The notes below the pieces were generated by a model, which searched no databases, had not been told where the DNA came from, and worked only from the letters and a program-made list of their open reading frames with translations. A stretch of 41,641 nt of DNA, from positions 1-41,641 of the forward strand of contig VFZY01000032.1 of the NCBI GenBank assembly GCA_016870915.1, written 5' to 3'. This document shows, piece by piece, positions 17,663 through 26,055 of this stretch. The DNA is from Acidobacteriota bacterium (GTDB lineage Bacteria > Acidobacteriota > Terriglobia > Bryobacterales > Bryobacteraceae). Position 1 is the first letter of the stretch. Each line of letters begins with the position of its first letter. The translations under genes and the position numbers were made by a program.

Positions 17663-20600
17663 ATGCGACTGATCTTTCTGATTCTACTGACCACCGCGGC
17701 GGCCTTCGGCCAAGCCGTTACCGCCTCACTTGTGGGAGCCATCACGGATTCGTCGGGTGGAGCGGTGCCCGAAGCCACGGTGCGCATCACCGAAACGCAG
17801 ACCGGCGTGGCTCGTCAGCTCACAACCAGCGCGGAAGGACTGTTCAGCCAGCCCTATCTTCCGCCGGGTGTGTATACGGTGGAGGTGGAGCGGGCAGGCT
17901 TCAAGAAGGTGTCGCGGAGCAACATCCAGCTTCAGGTGGCGACCACGGTACGCGTGGATTTCACGCTGGAGCCCGGCATGGTGACGGAGACGGTTCAGGT
18001 GACCGCCGAATCGCCGCTGTTGCAGACGGATCGCAGTGACGTGAGCCGCACGGTGACGTCGCAGGCCGTGAGGGAACTGCCGGTGGCCAACCGGAGCTTT
18101 CAGGCACTGGCGGGATTGATGCCGGGAGTCACACCGCCGATCGCCAATTTCACTGCGCTTGAAGATCCGCAGCGCACGTCTTTCTTCCAGGCCAACGGGC
18201 AGGGGAACTCGGCGAACAACGTGCAGGTGGATGGTGTGGACAATAACAACGTGACGCTGGGGCTGACGATCTACATTCCGCCGGCGGAAGGCGTGCAGGA
18301 GGTGAGCATCAGCACGTCGAACTTCAACGCGGAGTTCGGGCGGGCGGGCGGCGCGGTGCTGAACGTGATCACGCGCGGCGGCACCAATCAGTTGCATGGA
18401 AGCCTCTTCCACTTTCACCGGAACGCCTCCTTGCGGGCGCGCAACTTCTTCAACTTCGTACCGCAGCCGAAGCCGGCGTTCGTGCGCAACCAGTACGGAG
18501 GCACGGTGGGCGGACCCATCCGGCGCAATAAGACGTTCTTCTTCGGGTCCGTGCAGGCCACCAGCGAACACCGCGCCACCACGCAGTTCAACACGATTCC
18601 CGTGGCCGCATGGCGCACCGGCGATTTCAACGGCGTGCCGGGCTTGAATCTGTATGATCCGCGCACGGGGACGGCGACGGGCGCGGGCCGGACGCCGTTC
18701 GCGGAAGGCCGGATCCCCTCAAGCAGGATTCACCCGATCGCATCGCGGCTGGCGTCGTTCCTGCCGGCGACGAACCAGGCGGGGCTGGCCAACAATATTG
18801 TGGGGAACGTGCCGTTCAAGCTGGATACCTACACCTACGACGCACGAGTCGACCACAACTTCAACGAGCGCAACAGCATGTTTCTGAAGTATGCCTATGT
18901 GCCGTCGGACGTGGCGCAGGATGCACTGCTGGGGCTTAAGATCGGCGATGGCGTGGCCAGCACGGGCGCCAACCATACCGTCGCTCTGAACTACAACCGC
19001 CAGTGGAGCCCGACGCTGCTGATGGAATCGCGCTTTGGCTACAACCGGTACTTTGTGAACGTGAACGGCAACAACGTGGACGACCCGCTGGCAAAGGAAT
19101 TGGGATTCCGCAATCCATTCCCGGACCCGATCAGTGCGCGCGGCCTGCCCCGTTTCGACGTCTCGGGCATGCCGGGTATCGGGGTGCCGGTGGTGTATCC
19201 CTTGGTCAACGCCGACAATCTGTTCAACGCGGTGAACACGTGGAGCAAGAATGTCAACCGGCACACCATGAAGTGGGGCGCCGATGTGCGCCGCATCCGC
19301 GCGGACCGCTTCCAGCCGCAGGGGCTCAACTTCGGCCCCCGGGGCCGCTTCCAGTTCAACCCGGGAACGGCGGCGCTGCCAGGCGCGCCGCTGGGCGCTT
19401 TCGGCACGCTGGGCAACTCATTCGCGGCGTTTCTGATCAACGCTCCGGACGTTTCTTCCCGGACGTTCCAGACGGTCACTCCCACCAACCGCCTGACGCA
19501 GCTTTTCTTCTTCTTCCATGACTCGTGGCAGGTGACATCGCGCCTCACCCTGGATCTGGGCTTGCGATACGAGGCCCATTCGACGGTGAAGCCGCGCTAC
19601 GCCGGCGGGGCGTCGAACTACGACATTTCGAACAACAGCCTGGTGGTGGCGGGCGTGGGCGGCATCGGCCTGAGCACCAACGTCGACTTCGACCGGAACA
19701 ACTGGGCGCCGCGGGTGGGGTTTGCCTACAAGGTATCGCCGAAGGCAGTGCTGCGCGGCGGCTATGGCACCAGCTATTACACCGGGAGGTTCGGGTTCAC
19801 GGGCGGCACGCTTTCCACACAGTTCCCGGTGATCTACAACGTGCAGAACGGGGTGGCGAACGACTTCCGGATCGACGGGAGCATGGATACGATTGAGCCG
19901 GTTCCGGTGGTGCCCATTCCGTCGAGCGGCGTGATCAACCCGGCGCCCAACCAGGGCTTTTTCACGATTCCCCGCAAGACCCCCATCCCGTTTGTGCACA
20001 GCTACAGCCTGACCTATCAGCGGGAGTTGGGGCTGGGTGTGGTGATGGACGCCGCTTACGTGGGATCGCTGGGGCGGCGCCTGCCCAGCCAGCGCGAGCT
20101 GAACCACGCCTTGCCAGGGCAGGGCGCGGCCGGGCTGCGGTTCAATCAGCTCTTCGGCCGGACGGCGAGTGTCGCCGAGCGCGCCAATGCCTACAACAAC
20201 AACTACAACTCCCTGCAGGCGAATTTTCAGAAGCGCTTCTCGAATGGCTTGCAGTTCGGTCTGGCATACACGTGGAGCAAGGTGTTGAGCGTGCAGGACG
20301 ATCAGGGCGGCTTCGTGATCACGGCGATTGTCCGCCGCAACTACGGGCCCACGTCGTTTGACCGGAATCAGATGATGGTGTTCAACCACCTGTGGGAACT
20401 GCCGTTCGGCAAGGGGAAGCCATTTGCGAATACCGGCGCCATGCGGCATGTGGCGGGCGGGTGGCAGGTGAACGGAATCTACCGGGCGGTGAGCGGATCG
20501 CCGTTCAATATCTCGGCGGATGCGGGACCGTGCAACTGTCCAGGCAATGGGCAGTTCGCCGACGTGGTGGGCAAGTACAAGATTTTGGGCGGCGTGGGCC

Positions 20601-20905
20601 CGGGGCAGCGCTTCTTCGATGTCTCGGCATTCGCCGCGCCGGGCGCCAACCGCTTCGGGAACGCGGGGCGCAATGTCGGCCGGGGTCCGAATCTGTTCAA
20701 CTACGACTTTTCAGTGTTCCGGAATTTCGATCTCCGGGAAGGGTGGAAGCTGGAGTTCCGCACGGAGTTCTACAATCTGACGAATACGCCGCAGTTCGCT
20801 AATCCGGTGGGCAACGTGAACGCCGGGAACTTCAGCCAGATCACGGGGACCATCGCAGGCGCCGGTGAGCGCGAGGTGCAGTTTGCGCTGCGTCTGCGAT
20901 TTTGA
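17663..20905 (+). CDS. TonB-dependent receptor, Oar-like, with carboxypeptidase-regulatory domain
   Basis: A 1080-residue outer-membrane receptor of the acidobacterial Oar-like type. A signal peptide (MRLIFLILLTTAAAFGQA) leads into a carboxypeptidase-regulatory-like beta sandwich (residues 20-110: ASLVGAITDSSGGAVPEATVRI, YTVEVERAGFKK). A plug region follows at about 120-260 (RELPVANRSFQALAGLMPGVT, VQVDGVDNNNVT, FNAEFGRAGGAVLNVITRGGTN). The remainder is a beta barrel ending RLRF; a terminal Phe is the usual outer-membrane assembly signal. Such receptors import large substrates, often carbohydrates or peptides, with energy from TonB/ExbBD; the substrate here is unknown. CGGAG lies about 11 bases before the ATG. 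It is a single gene, convergent with the NYN gene. Confidence 0.93.
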   Translation: MRLIFLILLTTAAAFGQAVTASLVGAITDSSGGAVPEATVRITETQTGVARQLTTSAEGLFSQPYLPPGVYTVEVERAGFKKVSRSNIQLQVATTVRVDFTLEPGMVTETVQVTAESPLLQTDRSDVSRTVTSQAVRELPVANRSFQALAGLMPGVTPPIANFTALEDPQRTSFFQANGQGNSANNVQVDGVDNNNVTLGLTIYIPPAEGVQEVSISTSNFNAEFGRAGGAVLNVITRGGTNQLHGSLFHFHRNASLRARNFFNFVPQPKPAFVRNQYGGTVGGPIRRNKTFFFGSVQATSEHRATTQFNTIPVAAWRTGDFNGVPGLNLYDPRTGTATGAGRTPFAEGRIPSSRIHPIASRLASFLPATNQAGLANNIVGNVPFKLDTYTYDARVDHNFNERNSMFLKYAYVPSDVAQDALLGLKIGDGVASTGANHTVALNYNRQWSPTLLMESRFGYNRYFVNVNGNNVDDPLAKELGFRNPFPDPISARGLPRFDVSGMPGIGVPVVYPLVNADNLFNAVNTWSKNVNRHTMKWGADVRRIRADRFQPQGLNFGPRGRFQFNPGTAALPGAPLGAFGTLGNSFAAFLINAPDVSSRTFQTVTPTNRLTQLFFFFHDSWQVTSRLTLDLGLRYEAHSTVKPRYAGGASNYDISNNSLVVAGVGGIGLSTNVDFDRNNWAPRVGFAYKVSPKAVLRGGYGTSYYTGRFGFTGGTLSTQFPVIYNVQNGVANDFRIDGSMDTIEPVPVVPIPSSGVINPAPNQGFFTIPRKTPIPFVHSYSLTYQRELGLGVVMDAAYVGSLGRRLPSQRELNHALPGQGAAGLRFNQLFGRTASVAERANAYNNNYNSLQANFQKRFSNGLQFGLAYTWSKVLSVQDDQGGFVITAIVRRNYGPTSFDRNQMMVFNHLWELPFGKGKPFANTGAMRHVAGGWQVNGIYRAVSGSPFNISADAGPCNCPGNGQFADVVGKYKILGGVGPGQRFFDVSAFAAPGANRFGNAGRNVGRGPNLFNYDFSVFRNFDLREGWKLEFRTEFYNLTNTPQFANPVGNVNAGNFSQITGTIAGAGEREVQFALRLRF

Positions 20906-21000: not shown

Positions 21001-21618
21001 CTAGGCCATCGTTGCCGGTTGCGGAGCCGCCTCAAGCGGCCATTCAATCGGCCGCTTGAAATCACAATGCGCCAGGAGCTCTGGAGCGGGCGTGCATCCG
21101 GGAATGCAGACGAGCGCAACCTGAATACCAGTCCGTCGAACCAGCTTCATCGCCGGGACACAATCAGTGTCGTTAGTCATGAGGGCGATTAGATCAACGG
21201 AGCGGTTGGCAGCGATCGTTGCCATGTCGAGTCCGATCCGCATGTCCACTCCTTTCTGTTCGAACTTCGGAATGAAGTCGGAATCCACCGGAGGATTCGA
21301 GGGCCGGTGACCTCGCCGGATCACATACCCGCGAAACTTAAGCACGCCGCGTCGAACGGCGAAAAGATCCTTACGGGCAAGATCGTTGAGGTAGGGCGTT
21401 GTCTGGTTGAATGTCTGAACCGCTCGCGACACGGGCAGCTTAGTCTGGCCGTTGAAAAGGGCGCAGTCGTAGTAGAGAATTCGAATGATCTCTTCCGTGC
21501 CGAGACCACAGGACAGCCCTACCTTTTCGATGTAGTCTGCATCGATCACCTTCTTTGCCCGCTTGAGATAGCTGCGTAGGTGGCCGCCGTCGATAAGGAC
21601 GGTAATCTTCTTGTCCAA
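21001..21618 (-). CDS. NYN-domain (LabA/DUF88-type) putative nuclease
   Basis: The 205-residue protein has the PIN-like NYN fold: KITVLIDGGHLRSYLK at the start, ILYYDCALF near residue 50, KGVDMRIGLDMATIAA near 125, then IALMTNDTDCVPAMKLVRRTGIQVALV. Asp residues in LIDGG, KGVDM and NDTD are those that bind metal in this family, which cleaves RNA in characterised members. No OST-HTH or other extra domain is present. The TTG start is forced by a stop nine bases upstream. A hand count over 21301-21600 gives about 57% GC, below the surrounding genes, which hints at transfer. A strong hairpin sits 17 bases before the start. The biological role is unknown. Confidence 0.8.
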   Translation of the reverse strand: MDKKITVLIDGGHLRSYLKRAKKVIDADYIEKVGLSCGLGTEEIIRILYYDCALFNGQTKLPVSRAVQTFNQTTPYLNDLARKDLFAVRRGVLKFRGYVIRRGHRPSNPPVDSDFIPKFEQKGVDMRIGLDMATIAANRSVDLIALMTNDTDCVPAMKLVRRTGIQVALVCIPGCTPAPELLAHCDFKRPIEWPLEAAPQPATMA

Positions 21619-21846: not shown

Positions 21847-22416
21847 TCACGCGCTGGGAGCGGCCTGCTGATCCATGAAGTAGTAGCCGATCATGTGGCA
21901 CACAATCATGTGGGCGTCTTCAATGCGGCCCATGTGGGGGACCGGCGCCTGAATGTTGAGCTGGGCGAGACCCGCCAGTTTGCCCCCGTCGCGGCCCGTC
22001 AGGGCGAGCGTGCGGCAGCCGATGGAGTTGGCGTACTCAAACACCCGCAGGACATTGGGTGAGTTGCCGGAGCCGCTGATGCCCATCACCAGGTCGCCTG
22101 GCTGCGCGAAGTTCTTGAGCTGTTCGACAAAGGCCTGCTCGTAGGCGACATCGTTCGAATAGGCGGTGAGGGTGGGCAGCGAGTCCGTGAGGGCCATGAT
22201 GCGGAAGCGCTTGGCGTAGCCGAAGCTGGCTCCCTTGACGATATCGCAGGCGAAGTGGGAGGCTGTGGAGGCGCTGCCGCCGTTGCCGCAGACAAAGATG
22301 GTGCGGCCCTGATCGCGAGCCTCTTCAAACCAGCCGATGGCCTGGTTGACGCGTTCGAGATCGAGTGAGTCGATGGTCTTGAGCAGTTCGGTCTTGTATT
22401 GTTCAGCGAAGTTCAT
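21847..22416 (-). CDS. SIS-domain phosphosugar isomerase, GmhA-like
   Basis: A 189-residue single SIS domain close to sedoheptulose-7-phosphate isomerase (GmhA) in size and motifs: FVCGNGGSASTASHFACDI near residue 42, YSNDVAYEQAFVEQLKNF near 87, GISGSGNSPNVLRVFEYA near 112, and the C-terminal VPHMGRIEDAHMIVCHMIGYYF. GmhA converts sedoheptulose-7-phosphate to D-glycero-D-manno-heptose-7-phosphate, the first step to LPS or S-layer heptose. The context (kinase plus HAD phosphatase) fits a heptose pathway, but no nucleotidyltransferase is present, so another phosphosugar is possible. Its ATG overlaps the ROK stop codon by 4 bp. It is the last gene of the cassette. Confidence 0.85.
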   Translation of the reverse strand: MNFAEQYKTELLKTIDSLDLERVNQAIGWFEEARDQGRTIFVCGNGGSASTASHFACDIVKGASFGYAKRFRIMALTDSLPTLTAYSNDVAYEQAFVEQLKNFAQPGDLVMGISGSGNSPNVLRVFEYANSIGCRTLALTGRDGGKLAGLAQLNIQAPVPHMGRIEDAHMIVCHMIGYYFMDQQAAPSA

Positions 22417-23252
22417 GAGATTTCTTCCGTGAGTGCGAGCGCGCCGTGGAGCACGCTGTCATCGGCGAGCGCGGCGGGAACCACATCGATGCGCGCGCGC
22501 GACCAGGAGGTGATCTGGCGCCGGAGTTCGGCGCGCAGAGGATCAAAGAGAGCGGGTCCTGCCTTGCCGATGCCGCCGCCCACGACAAGGCGGGCCGGGT
22601 TGAGCAGCATGATGATGGTCTTGAGACCACGCGCCAGCAGGACGACGTACCGTTCGACGAATGACGGGTCCGTCAGGAGTTCGCGCGCGGGAATGCCGTG
22701 GTCGCGCTCCAGCCAGAGGCCGCAGCACATGCGCTCCAGGCAGCCGCGGGCGCCGCAAAGGCACTCAGGACCATCGGGCACCACGGTGGTGTGGCCGATT
22801 TCGCCGGCATAGGAGTCCGCCCCGCGATAGATGCGGCCTTGGGAGACGATACCGCCGCCGATGCCGGTGGAGAGGGTCATGTAGAAGACCGGGTCAAGCC
22901 CGCGGGCGGCGCCGGCGCGGGCTTCCCCAAGGGCGCCCACGTTGGCGTCGTTATCGATGATGACCGGTACTTTGAGGCGGTCCCTGAGCACAGCGCCCAG
23001 TTCGAATCCGGACCAGCCGCCAACGTGCGTGGAAAGTGCAACGCGTTGGGCGTCAAACAGCACCGGCCCTCCAAATCCCACGCCACAGCGGTCAAAGCGC
23101 CAGGATTCGGCGATGGCCGCGACGCGGCCGAGCATCCAATCGGGCCCGCCATCGCGGTTGGTGGCTTCGGAAACGCGTTGGATCATCCGCTCGCCATCGA
23201 AGAGGGCGATGGTGAACTTCGTGCCGCCGATGTCGATGGCAAGGGTCCTCAT
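22413..23252 (-). CDS. ROK family sugar kinase
   Basis: The 279-residue protein is a ROK-type kinase: N-terminal phosphate-binding TLAIDIGGTKFTIAL, VIIDNDANVGALGEARAG near residue 100 with the catalytic Asp in NDAN, LSTGIGGGIV, and the zinc-binding stretch GHTTVVPDGPECLCGARGCLE near 160. There is no N-terminal HTH, so it is an enzyme and not a NagC/XylR-type repressor. Most ROK kinases phosphorylate glucose, N-acetylmannosamine, N-acetylglucosamine or fructose; the substrate here is unknown. It overlaps both neighbours by 4 bp (ATGA), which implies coupled expression with the PfkB-type kinase and the isomerase. Two different sugar kinases in one cassette is unusual. Confidence 0.87.
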   Translation of the reverse strand: MRTLAIDIGGTKFTIALFDGERMIQRVSEATNRDGGPDWMLGRVAAIAESWRFDRCGVGFGGPVLFDAQRVALSTHVGGWSGFELGAVLRDRLKVPVIIDNDANVGALGEARAGAARGLDPVFYMTLSTGIGGGIVSQGRIYRGADSYAGEIGHTTVVPDGPECLCGARGCLERMCCGLWLERDHGIPARELLTDPSFVERYVVLLARGLKTIIMLLNPARLVVGGGIGKAGPALFDPLRAELRRQITSWSRARIDVVPAALADDSVLHGALALTEEIS

Positions 23253-24220
23253 GGCTCGGCCAGCTCCTGTGGGGAGGCAGTTCCGGTGCCTTTCTTCATG
23301 ATGGTCACGGATGCCACGCGGTGGCCGAAGAGGGCGGCGGCGCGAGCGGGCGCCCCGGCGGCAAGCGCCATGGCGGCTCCGGCGGAGAAGCTGTCACCCG
23401 CGCCGCAGATATCCACGGGGTTGGCTACGCGCGTGGTCTCGACGAAATCGCGGCCGGCGGCGGTTTCGATGGTGATGCCCGCGCCGCCGTGGGTGACGAA
23501 CAGGGCCGGCGCATTGCCGTGGGCCCGCAGGCTGGCCAGGGTGGCGCCGGCGCCCAGGCGAGCCAGCGCCTCGGCGGCCTCGTCTTCATTGGGCTTGATG
23601 TGGATGCCGCGAAAGTGCTCGATGCGGCGCCTTGAATCGGCCCAGATGATCGTGCCGGGGTGGGATTGGGCGAGTTCAGCGATTGCCTCGCGCACGGCAG
23701 GCGTCACAACGCCGCCGCAGCCGGTTTCAGCCTGGTCTGAGATGAGGACGGCGTCGAACCCGGTGAAGCTCTCGCGGATCAGTTCGATGAACTGCTCTTC
23801 GTCCCGGCGCGGCAGCGGCTGTGTGTTGATGAAGTCGACCCGGGGCAGATCCTCCTGACCCGTGGCCTGGTTCAGCAGCTTGGTGTAGGTGAAGGTGTGA
23901 ACGCGCGGCGACACCACCACCAGGTCGCTTGAGATGCGGCGTCTGTTGAGTGCGTGCCTCAGTTCGTAGCCGAAGCCGTCATCGCCGATGACACCGGCGA
24001 CGGCCACCTCGCCCACGCCGAGCGCCGCCAGGTTGTTGGCCACGGTGCCGCCGGCGCCGGGCGTGACTTCCGTGGCGGTGACCGCCGTGCGCGGGATGCC
24101 GGTCTCGCGGGATGGTTCGGCCAGCGAGGGATCGTAGCGGCACCACCGGTCCAGGCAAATATCGCCGATGACGAGGGCCCGCAGGGAGGGCAGTTGAGCC
24201 AGGATGCGGTCCGTGGTCAT
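23249..24220 (-). CDS. PfkB-family kinase resembling HldE/RfaE N-terminal domain
   Basis: The 323-residue protein is a PfkB-type carbohydrate kinase similar to the HldE/RfaE kinase domain: ALVIGDICLDRWCRYDPSLAEPSRETG at the N-terminus, GAGGTVANNLAALGV near residue 55, FINTQPLPRRDEEQF, IKPNEDEA, and the ATP/catalytic signature VDICGAGDSFSAGAAMALAAG near 275 with the GAGD base. HldE phosphorylates D-glycero-D-manno-heptose-7-phosphate at C1. The nucleotidyltransferase half of bifunctional HldE is missing here. The start at 24220 gives an ATGA overlap with the preceding gene; a start 15 bases earlier is possible. Substrate assignment to heptose is inference from resemblance and the GmhA-like neighbour. 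Confidence 0.82.
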   Translation of the reverse strand: MTTDRILAQLPSLRALVIGDICLDRWCRYDPSLAEPSRETGIPRTAVTATEVTPGAGGTVANNLAALGVGEVAVAGVIGDDGFGYELRHALNRRRISSDLVVVSPRVHTFTYTKLLNQATGQEDLPRVDFINTQPLPRRDEEQFIELIRESFTGFDAVLISDQAETGCGGVVTPAVREAIAELAQSHPGTIIWADSRRRIEHFRGIHIKPNEDEAAEALARLGAGATLASLRAHGNAPALFVTHGGAGITIETAAGRDFVETTRVANPVDICGAGDSFSAGAAMALAAGAPARAAALFGHRVASVTIMKKGTGTASPQELAEP

Positions 24221-25176
24221 GCCAGTGCGCGCCAAAGGGCAGGGACCGTGGCGCGATGATCACCCTGCACGTAGAAGCTCTCGCCGCCATCGGCCACGGT
24301 GCGGACCAGCATTGTCTTGTGGGGGCGGAAGTAGTAGCCGGGGTCGGTCTTGGGGAGTTCGGCGCGCGGGTCGCCGAGGATGGGAACGATGTCAAAGACC
24401 GCGGTGGTGAAGTGGCGGATCTCGCGTCCTTCCTGGTGCGCCACATTGCGAGCCATGGCCAGCGCCTTGAGGTACACCTCGGGAGCCATGATGGCGGAAC
24501 CGAAGCCCAGCAGCACGCCACCCTCCAGGTTCTCAACGCTCCGGGCGAAGATCAGGAAATCGCGGTAACTGGCGGAACCGAGCGCGGCGCCGTTGCAGTT
24601 CGGGTGCTGGTGAAGGATGTCGTAGCCGATGCCGGCATGGGAGGTGACGGGGATCCCAAGGCGGTACGCCTGAGCCAGCACGCTGAACCGGCGATGCGGA
24701 TAATCGCTTGCCAGGATGCGCCGGCCCGCATTCTCACCCAGCCCGAGCTCACGAACCGCGGCCTCCTCCACCCAATCGTTGAGCTCGCCGGTTTCGCGCC
24801 ACAGGCCGAATTCGCCGGTGCGGATGTAGCGGGCCACGCTTTCGGTGGTGGCGCCGATGCGGGCCAACTCGTAATCGTGGATCACACCCGCGCCGTTCAT
24901 GGCGATGTGCGTAAGGAGTCCGCGTTCCAGCAGATCGATGAGATGAAGGTTGACTCCCGCGCGAAGCACGTGAGCACCCATCATCAGGATGACGGCGGAG
25001 CCGCGGGCGCGGGCGGCGCGGATCCGTTCGGCCACCGTGGCCAGATGCGGATGTTCGAACGCGGGCGCGGCGCTGGTGAGTTCCAGCCAGCGGTCCAGGT
25101 GAAGATCGTGCGTGCGCTCGGCGAGCGGTTTGATCAGCAGCCGCGACCGGTCGAACTGCGGATAGCGTGAGGCCAT
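24217..25176 (-). CDS. Deoxyhypusine-synthase-like conserved protein of uncertain function
   Basis: A 319-residue protein I cannot assign firmly. The region at residues 55-125 (VILMMGAHVLRAGVNLHLIDLLERG, then HIAMNGAGVIHDYELARIGATTESVARYI) reads like a dinucleotide-binding fold, loosely like the NAD site of deoxyhypusine synthase, with Gly-rich MGAH and NGAG. Later come VTSHAGIGYDILHQHPNCNGAALGSASYRDF, with three His residues, and LEGGVLLGFGSAIMAPEVYLKAL. No signal peptide is present. The ATG at 25176 is two bases after the HAD stop codon and its own stop overlaps the kinase start by 4 bp, so it belongs to the same sugar pathway unit. It could be an NAD-dependent enzyme acting on a sugar phosphate. 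That is a guess. Confidence 0.7.
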   Translation of the reverse strand: MASRYPQFDRSRLLIKPLAERTHDLHLDRWLELTSAAPAFEHPHLATVAERIRAARARGSAVILMMGAHVLRAGVNLHLIDLLERGLLTHIAMNGAGVIHDYELARIGATTESVARYIRTGEFGLWRETGELNDWVEEAAVRELGLGENAGRRILASDYPHRRFSVLAQAYRLGIPVTSHAGIGYDILHQHPNCNGAALGSASYRDFLIFARSVENLEGGVLLGFGSAIMAPEVYLKALAMARNVAHQEGREIRHFTTAVFDIVPILGDPRAELPKTDPGYYFRPHKTMLVRTVADGGESFYVQGDHRATVPALWRALA

Positions 25177-25178
25177 GG

Positions 25179-25988
25179 TCAGGCGGCGGGGAAGAGCACG
25201 CCCATCAGGTCGGCGTGGCAGTTGTAGTTGGGGACGATGAAGTCCGCCCCGACGCCCACCAGGCGCTTGCGTTTCCACTCGTCGACCGAGGAGCACTCAG
25301 GCTCCTGGCTGGCCACGCCGACGGCAACGCCGCCCACCTGCTTGATGTTTTCGATCTCGACGTAACCGTCGCCAAAGCCGAGGAACTCCTCGCCTTTGCA
25401 CTCGGCGCGGGCCAGCACGCGCTGGATGAGGATGGCCTTCGAAAAGCTCTTGTAGTCGTCGAGCGCGCCAAATACGCCGCCGTCGAAGTACCGGGTTACG
25501 TTCAAAAGCTCCGCTTCCGCCTTCATGTAGGCTTCGTCGGTCCCGCTGGCCAGATACATGCGCAGGCCGCGCTCGCGCAACGATTCCAGAAGCTGGCGCG
25601 CCCCTGGCACCATGTATTTCTCAGGGCTGGCGTGGCCGCGGCGCAGCTCGTCGACGCGGCTTTCAATGCGGGTCCAGAGTCGGTCGAGGTAGATCTTCTT
25701 GTAGACCAGGGGGTCCTGGGGCGTGCCGCCCCGGGCCGTGATCTGATCGGCAAGTTCGATCATCTGATAGATAGTGTCTTTTCCGGTAAGCCGGCCCACA
25801 AAGTCATCCACCAGCGCGGTGAGTGACGCCTCGGATTCGCCGGTGTTGAGTTCAGCCAGAAACTCCACCATCATCGGCACCATGGTTTCCACCCATCCGG
25901 ATCGGATGAGGGAGATGGTTCCATCAAAGTCAAAAAGCACCACCCGCGCGTTCGCGGCCGACGCGCCGGGGCGGATGTGTTCGATCAT
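25179..25988 (-). CDS. HAD-superfamily phosphatase
   Basis: The 269-residue protein has HAD motif I VVLFDFDGTISL (nucleophile and acid Asp in DFDGT), motif II Ser/Thr in YLASGTDEAY near residue 160, Lys in DYKSFSKA near 190 and motif IV FGFGDGYVEIENI near 215. The helical cap between motifs I and II is of the beta-phosphoglucomutase/phosphatase type (SLTALVDDFVGRLTGKDT). Its likely role is to dephosphorylate a sugar-phosphate intermediate, as GmhB does in the heptose pathway, although it does not look like GmhB itself. CGGAG lies five bases before the ATG at 25988. It heads the five-gene cassette; 67 bp separate it from the upstream hydrolase gene. Confidence 0.82.
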   Translation of the reverse strand: MIEHIRPGASAANARVVLFDFDGTISLIRSGWVETMVPMMVEFLAELNTGESEASLTALVDDFVGRLTGKDTIYQMIELADQITARGGTPQDPLVYKKIYLDRLWTRIESRVDELRRGHASPEKYMVPGARQLLESLRERGLRMYLASGTDEAYMKAEAELLNVTRYFDGGVFGALDDYKSFSKAILIQRVLARAECKGEEFLGFGDGYVEIENIKQVGGVAVGVASQEPECSSVDEWKRKRLVGVGADFIVPNYNCHADLMGVLFPAA

Positions 25989-26055
25989 CAAGTCTCCGGA
26001 AAGGGGATTCGGGAACAGGAAGTGCCCTGGTCCCATTGTCCCACTAGTGGAGCGT

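Follow-up and report, generated by a model that had tools for sequence, protein, structure and literature searches.

The closest described counterpart of the locus reported here is the ADP-heptose pathway, which is formed by GmhA, HldE, GmhB and HldD. GmhB is a phosphatase of HAD subclass III (GmhB/HisB type), and HldD is a member of the short-chain dehydrogenase/reductase (SDR) family that uses a bound nicotinamide cofactor. A second point of reference is provided by Geobacter sulfurreducens, in which GSU2086, the name-giver of a protein family, is encoded between the genes of the heptose kinase (GSU2085, hldE) and the isomerase (GSU2087, gmhA); a transposon screen for growth on electrodes gives similar values for the three, −3.1, −3.2 and −3.7 for GSU2085, GSU2086 and GSU2087, respectively, which indicates a common growth defect (PMC5585712). 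The DNA analyzed here, a stretch of 41,641 nucleotides from an Acidobacteriota bacterium (contig VFZY01000032.1, the window), carries a five-gene cassette that includes a member of the same family. The cassette is real and conserved, and the lead of greatest interest that it offers is the GSU2086 family itself.

The reading that agrees best with the data, in line with the original prediction of a variant heptose-like route, is that the cassette is translationally coupled and yields a sugar 1-phosphate of heptose or closely related type, in parallel with the ADP-heptose pathway. We favor it tentatively, on the strength of the conserved gene set, the families of its products, the intact HAD motifs, the NAD-type fold modeled for the GSU2086-family protein, and the linkage of that family to GmhA and HldE and its anti-correlation with HldD. 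In the portion of the literature covered by our search, the Geobacter screen was the only work with a bearing on the cassette or on a substitute for HldD.

Organization, families and conservation of the cassette

The cassette encodes a HAD phosphatase/phosphosugar hydrolase (P0001, 269 aa; 25179–25988; PF00702), a GSU2086-family protein of group B with a nicotinamide adenine dinucleotide (NAD)-type deoxyhypusine-synthase/ArgZ fold (P0002, 319 aa; 24217–25176; NF052581), a PfkB sugar kinase nearest to the heptose-7-phosphate kinase domain of HldE (P0003, 323 aa; 23249–24220; PF00294), a ROK sugar kinase (P0004, 279 aa; 22413–23252; PF00480) and a GmhA-like SIS sugar-phosphate isomerase (P0005, 189 aa; 21847–22416; PF13580, SIS_2). 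All five frames are uninterrupted and lie on the minus strand. A 2-base gap (25178–25177) separates the HAD and GSU2086 genes and the other three junctions are 4-base overlaps, of which 24217–24220 reads ATGA on the minus strand. Frames and coordinates thus confirm the predicted arrangement; the accompanying statement that the five proteins must be made together goes beyond what the overlaps, real as they are, can show. The start of the HAD gene was placed at 25988 (MIEHIRPG), in preference to the longer frame that begins at 26036, because relatives such as locus L037 match from there (MIEMIRPG). Promoter and terminator scans gave no signal above shuffle level, and a scan for tandem repeats found none.

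Pfam and NCBIfam scores bear out the assignment of four of the products to HAD, PfkB/HldE-like, ROK and GmhA-like families. P0001 matches PF00702 (52.6 bits) and also HAD_2, and the motifs DFDGT, ASGT, K184 and GDGxxE are intact in it and invariant in 35 aligned cassette HADs, the window's included. These are the catalytic motifs of the enzyme. The AlphaFold2 model of P0001 (predicted local distance difference test score, pLDDT, of 95.1) has AlnB and beta-phosphoglucomutase in its first Foldseek rows. The enzyme is not of the GmhB type: its 18 NCBIfam matches (E ≤ 0.1) include no GmhB model, and it scores 13.5 bits against HAD-IIIA, for which the cut-off is 44.6. P0003 matches PF00294 with 98.4 bits, and its best NCBIfam match is rfaE_dom_I (TIGR02198), which at 146.4 bits fails the curated cut-off of 345; in the PDB it matches 4e84 (E 4.8e-16). 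P0004 lies well above the gathering score of PF00480 (183.3 versus 22.9 bits), is closest in the PDB to the glucokinase 3vov (E 4.2e-39), and carries the zinc motif CLCGARGCLE. P0005 matches SIS_2 with 68.4 bits, and its best NCBIfam match, gmhA (TIGR00441, 113.3 bits), also fails its curated cut-off (209.45). The active-site positions of GmhA comprise E, R and Q residues and two His; P0005 retains His54 and His174, and has D58, G62 and E166 where GmhA-type proteins carry E, R and Q.

The GSU2086 family (NF052581) was over its cut-off in 129 of 396 genomes drawn from Acidobacteriota, the phylum of the window. In named genomes, a profile built from nine window-like proteins matched at least 577 relatives, of which the best 80 were kept. 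These stem from Acidobacteria, Bryobacterales, Planctomycetota/Gemmataceae, Armatimonadetes, Chloroflexi, Latescibacteria, Omnitrophota and a Deltaproteobacterium, and Candidatus Sulfopaludibacter, at 81%, is among the best named relatives. A FastTree tree of 155 family members separates group A (64 rows) from group B (90 rows, namely the 80 from the named-genome scan, 9 others and the window) with a support of 99–100, and one fusion row lies between them. Partners on the same strand and within 3.5 kb of group B genes are HAD in 67 of 90 rows, PfkB in 71, both in 60, ROK in 33, SIS in 30 and all four in 21. These counts define HAD-GSU2086-PfkB as the core of the cassette, with ROK and SIS added mainly in Bryobacterales. 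The core was found in Acidobacteriota, Planctomycetota, Armatimonadota, Chloroflexota and Omnitrophota, and its recurrence across phyla is not chance; SIS and ROK also lie just upstream of it in a Chloroflexota locus (L138) and in the acidobacterial L037. Of the three phyla that the original prediction named for a test of gene order, Acidobacteriota and Planctomycetota do show the core; no Verrucomicrobia were found among the best 80 of the at least 577 relatives. A survey of the phylum of L138 detected group B in 2 of 61 genomes, L138's own included, and the other has genes for HAD, the deoxyhypusine-synthase-fold protein and PfkB on a short contig (L182).

In the flanks of the 90 loci, where annotation covered only some of the gene clusters, and with frames antisense to or overlapping the cassette set aside, no other cluster reached more than 15 loci; the exception is an unannotated frame of 119 residues at the cassette in 19 of the 90. 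Other genes lie between those of the cassette at individual loci: a LarC nickel-insertion protein (PF01969, 205.6 bits; L128:12057–13241) between PfkB and ROK in Ornatilinea apprima, and, between ROK and HAD, an adenosine deaminase (512.5 bits; L138:8012–9007) and a pyrophosphate (PPi)-dependent phosphofructokinase (579.6 bits; L037:7637–8917).

The cassette resembles the ADP-heptose pathway in its SIS_2 isomerase, its PfkB kinase nearest to rfaE_dom_I and its HAD phosphatase. It differs in the scores of the kinase and the isomerase, which lie below the cut-offs, in the three changes at the SIS active site, in the class of the HAD enzyme, and in the additional ROK and GSU2086-family proteins. 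A nucleotidyltransferase is absent from the cassette, as originally stated; what had been overlooked is a stand-alone HldC-like gene elsewhere in the genome (C26:37115–37528), the sole match to rfaE_dom_II (TIGR02199; E ≤ 0.001), with 180.4 bits against a cut-off of 181.5. This gene adjoins one of 1155 residues that was read by eye as mfd. Its presence says little, because a match of this kind occurs in 373 of the 396 genomes drawn from the phylum, and it was rejected as proof of an ADP-heptose route. Beyond the cassette SIS there is no second gmhA match in the source genome (E ≤ 0.001), the next best rfaE_dom_I match after the cassette PfkB (146 bits) reaches 44.2 bits, and no HldD was matched at E ≤ 1e-50 in this assembly (G000), which is 96.89% complete. 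At these thresholds no second full heptose pathway was detected in the genome, and the core of the cassette recurs in relatives; a second pathway and an unconserved order were the findings that the original prediction had set against its own reading.

The GSU2086-family protein and its relation to HldD

P0002 belongs to NF052581, "GSU2086 family protein" (381.9 bits, cut-off 250), a family entry that states no function. Pfam gives nothing over threshold: the ArgZ-like domain reaches 16.1 bits against a gathering score of 27, and the deoxyhypusine synthase family PF01916 is absent from the matches at E ≤ 1. A search of the source genome with PF01916 matches another locus only, which encodes a separate deoxyhypusine-synthase-like protein of 442 aa with an AEAVTWGK motif (C53:25851–26783, L001; 116.6 bits), and comparison of the profiles of the two proteins gave a probability of 10 over 79 columns. 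Given the absence from Pfam matches and the separate locus, we rejected membership of P0002 in the deoxyhypusine synthase family. The earlier description of the protein as deoxyhypusine-synthase-like therefore does not apply to its sequence family, but it does apply to its fold.

The AlphaFold2 model of P0002, computed from a 49-row alignment, has a pLDDT of 92.8 and a predicted template modeling score (pTM) of 0.91. Foldseek assigns it to the NAD-binding fold of deoxyhypusine synthase and ArgZ (E 3.2e-08, probability 1.00). In VIA-align, the model superimposes on the C-terminal domain of AgrE/ArgZ (6lrf_B; Z 19.1, root mean square deviation 3.3, 217 residues), on the deoxyhypusine synthase of Pyrococcus horikoshii (7cmc_A; Z 18.6, root mean square deviation 3.7, 250 residues) and, with a Z of 18.3, on the archaeal LOR/SDH protein 3c2q. 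The structural matches include 6lrg, an NAD complex, and ArgZ ranks first in a profile search of PDB sequences (E 0.00085). Based on this fold, P0002 is predicted to bind NAD. The protein is alike in fold to the NAD domain of ArgZ/AgrE and to deoxyhypusine synthase, and differs from ArgZ/AgrE in its sub-threshold sequence match and its sugar-phosphate gene neighbors. Twelve charged residues (H69, H100, D101, E103, E112, E128, D186, D206, E233, K237, R243 and D262) are invariant in all 64 rows of group A and all 90 of group B. K287 is present in all 90 rows of group B and in none of the 64 of group A, and may, at a guess made by eye, correspond to the lysine that is catalytic in deoxyhypusine synthase.

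Relatives of P0002 adjoin GmhA and HldE of the ADP-heptose pathway. Cassette-type HAD or PfkB genes occur near none of the 64 group A rows, and SIS genes near 26 of them, including 18 of 20 short loci in a second phylum, that of the deltaproteobacterial locus L132. As read by eye, at least 16 of the 129 acidobacterial genomes have GmhA no more than 516 bases from a family member, and GmhA is likewise close to one fragment; three SIS genes adjoining group A score 200.9, 182.9 and 180.4 bits with the gmhA model, all under its cut-off. Group A adjoins an HldE of the usual domain order in genomes G349 and G176 (474.6 and 451.4 bits, cut-off 521; loci L189 and L190), and the rfaE_dom_II of both is over its own cut-off. 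In Ornatilinea, a single protein of 566 residues combines a family member outside both groups with a GmhA-like domain. Members of group B, or group-B-like ones as assigned by profile score in L183 and L185, adjoin fused HldE-like proteins in which rfaE domain II precedes domain I (L132, L183 and L185; 98 + 111 bits in L185), and several loci with such fusions also hold a weak GmhA-like SIS, an SDR epimerase or a split transketolase. The reversed order was checked in L132, L183 and L185 and read by eye in L036, L184, L186 and L187; together with the split transketolase, these fusions possibly represent a further undescribed nucleotide-heptose route. GSU2086 itself, which lies outside the tree, presumably belongs to group A, whereas the window protein belongs to group B and is accompanied by separate HAD, PfkB and ROK genes. 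The source genome also encodes a second family member, of group A (C35:3174–4091, L032), and no SIS, HAD, PfkB or ROK neighbor was found in a stretch of 20 kb around it.

The occurrence of the family is anti-correlated with that of HldD, which was searched with TIGR02197 at E ≤ 1e-50, all matches being over the cut-off. HldD is present in 91 of the 396 Acidobacteriota genomes and coincides with the GSU2086 family in 3, against 29.6 expected (Fisher p 3e-14, uncorrected for ancestry, as are all p values given below). The three genomes (G024, G050 and G298) belong to one genus, and their loci (L045, L047 and L051) are group B cassettes; G298 also has a divergent copy (L046). Among the 27 genomes of family f22, 15 hold only HldD, 11 hold only the GSU2086 family, 1 holds neither and none holds both (p 9e-7), and genus g47 within f22 shows both states (13 and 2 genomes, with neither in 1). 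All four genomes of family f35 hold exactly one of the two, 2 and 2. The 148 genomes of the second phylum contain the GSU2086 family in 94 cases, HldD in 31 and both in 8, where 19.7 are expected (p 1.8e-6). In family f2, HldD can adjoin HldE directly (e.g., G321:C16 and G094:C1), and the same spot is held by group A in G176 and G349. HldD and the GSU2086 family thus share the same kind of neighbors although they are different protein families. These data suggest that group A may take the place of HldD. In family f24, eight HldD matches (G174, G150, G106, G087, G384, G205, G053 and G027) cross one in-frame TAG or TGA, which could be due to overrun of the match at the C-terminus or to readthrough.

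The GSU2086 family bears a place-holder name, yet it is over the cut-off in 129 of 396 and 94 of 148 genomes. Its linkage, fold and anti-correlation with HldD make the unnamed protein a testable enzyme.

Proposed route and alternative explanations

From the gene content and the fold of P0002 we infer a route, in its substrate, step order and direction as well as in the use of NAD and the epimerase chemistry, along the following lines. Where present, the ROK kinase would phosphorylate the terminal hydroxyl of a free sugar, and the SIS protein would interconvert the ketose and aldose phosphates. The GSU2086-family enzyme may epimerize the sugar phosphate through a transient NAD-dependent oxidation, the HldA-like PfkB kinase would put a phosphate on C1, and the HAD enzyme would take off the distal phosphate. 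Activation of the product could fall to a nucleotidyltransferase whose gene lies outside the cassette, the stand-alone HldC-like protein being one candidate; 45 of the 50 group B genomes searched have an rfaE_dom_II match (one of them weak), and 5 have none (L088, L116, L128, L144 and L146).

A bolder proposal, which we regard as doubtful, is that the GSU2086 family constitutes a second, unrelated heptose 6-epimerase, group A, as an NAD enzyme of deoxyhypusine-synthase fold, replacing HldD next to GmhA and HldE, and group B being a paralogue in an undescribed parallel pathway, the present cassette. The latter would make a different heptose-like sugar 1-phosphate in several phyla, including Chloroflexota without detectable HldC. 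If true, the epimerase reading would account for the many bacteria that have GmhA and HldE yet lack HldD, and it would hint at an undescribed sugar in Acidobacteriota and other bacteria that are represented mostly by metagenomes from soil, bogs, groundwater and lakes.

Several observations weigh against the route proposed here. The cassette has no activating enzyme of its own, and three of the four Chloroflexota genomes searched (L128, L144 and L146; not L138) have no rfaE_dom_II match. D58, G62 and E166 are found in all 27 cassette SIS proteins that score over 200 bits with that of the window. Five weaker SIS proteins in group B loci are mixed (D in 3 and E in 2 at position 58; E in 3 and Q in 2 at position 166), and among 33 SIS rows of loci that lack group B, E is carried by 33, R by 30 and Q by 33. 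Because three active-site positions are altered, the substrate may not be heptose. None of the four partners is near group B in 11 of 90 rows, some of which are at contig ends. Deductions on group A do not necessarily extend to group B, and a SIS gene lies beside group A in only 8 of 44 Acidobacteriota rows, many of these loci extending just 1.5 kb to each side; the longer acidobacterial stretches L052–L071 hold a SIS gene in 9 of 20. HldD and the GSU2086 family do co-occur, in 3 Acidobacteriota genomes and 8 of the second phylum, and at least 3 of these 8 have group A (L162, L164 and L172), so that the exclusion is not absolute. Counted by acidobacterial family, both are found in 3 of 87, which is mildly low against the 5.6 expected (p 0.09), and therefore it is the pattern within families that bears the weight (exactly one of the two in 26 of 27 genomes of f22 and in 4 of 4 of f35). 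Finally, ABC (ATP-binding cassette) genes resembling sugar transporters adjoin the cassette in two Chloroflexota loci (L128 and L138), which suits catabolism.

The alternative that survives best, although it seems somewhat unlikely, is that the cassette is the lineage's diverged envelope ADP-heptose pathway, with the SIS protein as GmhA, PfkB as HldA, the HAD enzyme in place of GmhB, the C26 gene as HldC and the GSU2086 protein as an accessory. It would account for a source genome in which a further GmhA match is lacking, the next best HldA-like kinase reaches just 44.2 bits, and an HldC-like gene is present (180.4 bits). The isomerase and the kinase, however, score far under their cut-offs (113 versus 209 and 146 versus 345 bits), the SIS active site has changed from E to D, from R to G and from Q to E, and the HAD enzyme is nearest to AlnB and beta-phosphoglucomutase and not GmhB-like. 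In addition, the cassette occurs in Chloroflexota genomes without an rfaE_dom_II match, the HldC-like matches are unspecific (373 of 396 genomes), and the source genome also holds a group A copy.

It is unlikely that the cassette is a catabolic operon, in which an imported sugar would be phosphorylated by ROK, isomerized, epimerized and phosphorylated again for entry into central metabolism. The HAD phosphatase would reverse the phosphorylation, and the glycan-cluster context of the family, with HldE-like fusions and transketolase, looks biosynthetic. Catabolism would agree with the sugar-binding ABC protein and ROK-type regulator in L128, with the permease-like genes common to L128 and L138 (clusters c261 and c263; names assigned by eye), and with the PPi-phosphofructokinase between ROK and HAD in L037. 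Beyond these loci, however, the flanking survey shows no recurrent sugar transporter; a cluster read by eye as ABC ATPases is found in 15 of the 90 loci, with distances that scatter and with either orientation, and none of nine scanned neighbors in the window is an ABC-type transporter.

That P0002 is a bystander in the operon, a polyamine or protein-modifying enzyme like deoxyhypusine or homospermidine synthases, is highly improbable, since it has the fold (Z 18.6 to the P. horikoshii enzyme) but no Pfam match to deoxyhypusine synthase at E ≤ 1, the genome encodes a separate PF01916 protein at C53, and both clades of the family are recurrently linked to sugar-phosphate genes.

Genes next to the cassette

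Downstream of the cassette, an NYN-domain gene occupies positions 21001–21618 of the window, and the gene of a large outer-membrane beta-barrel protein is located at 17663–20905.

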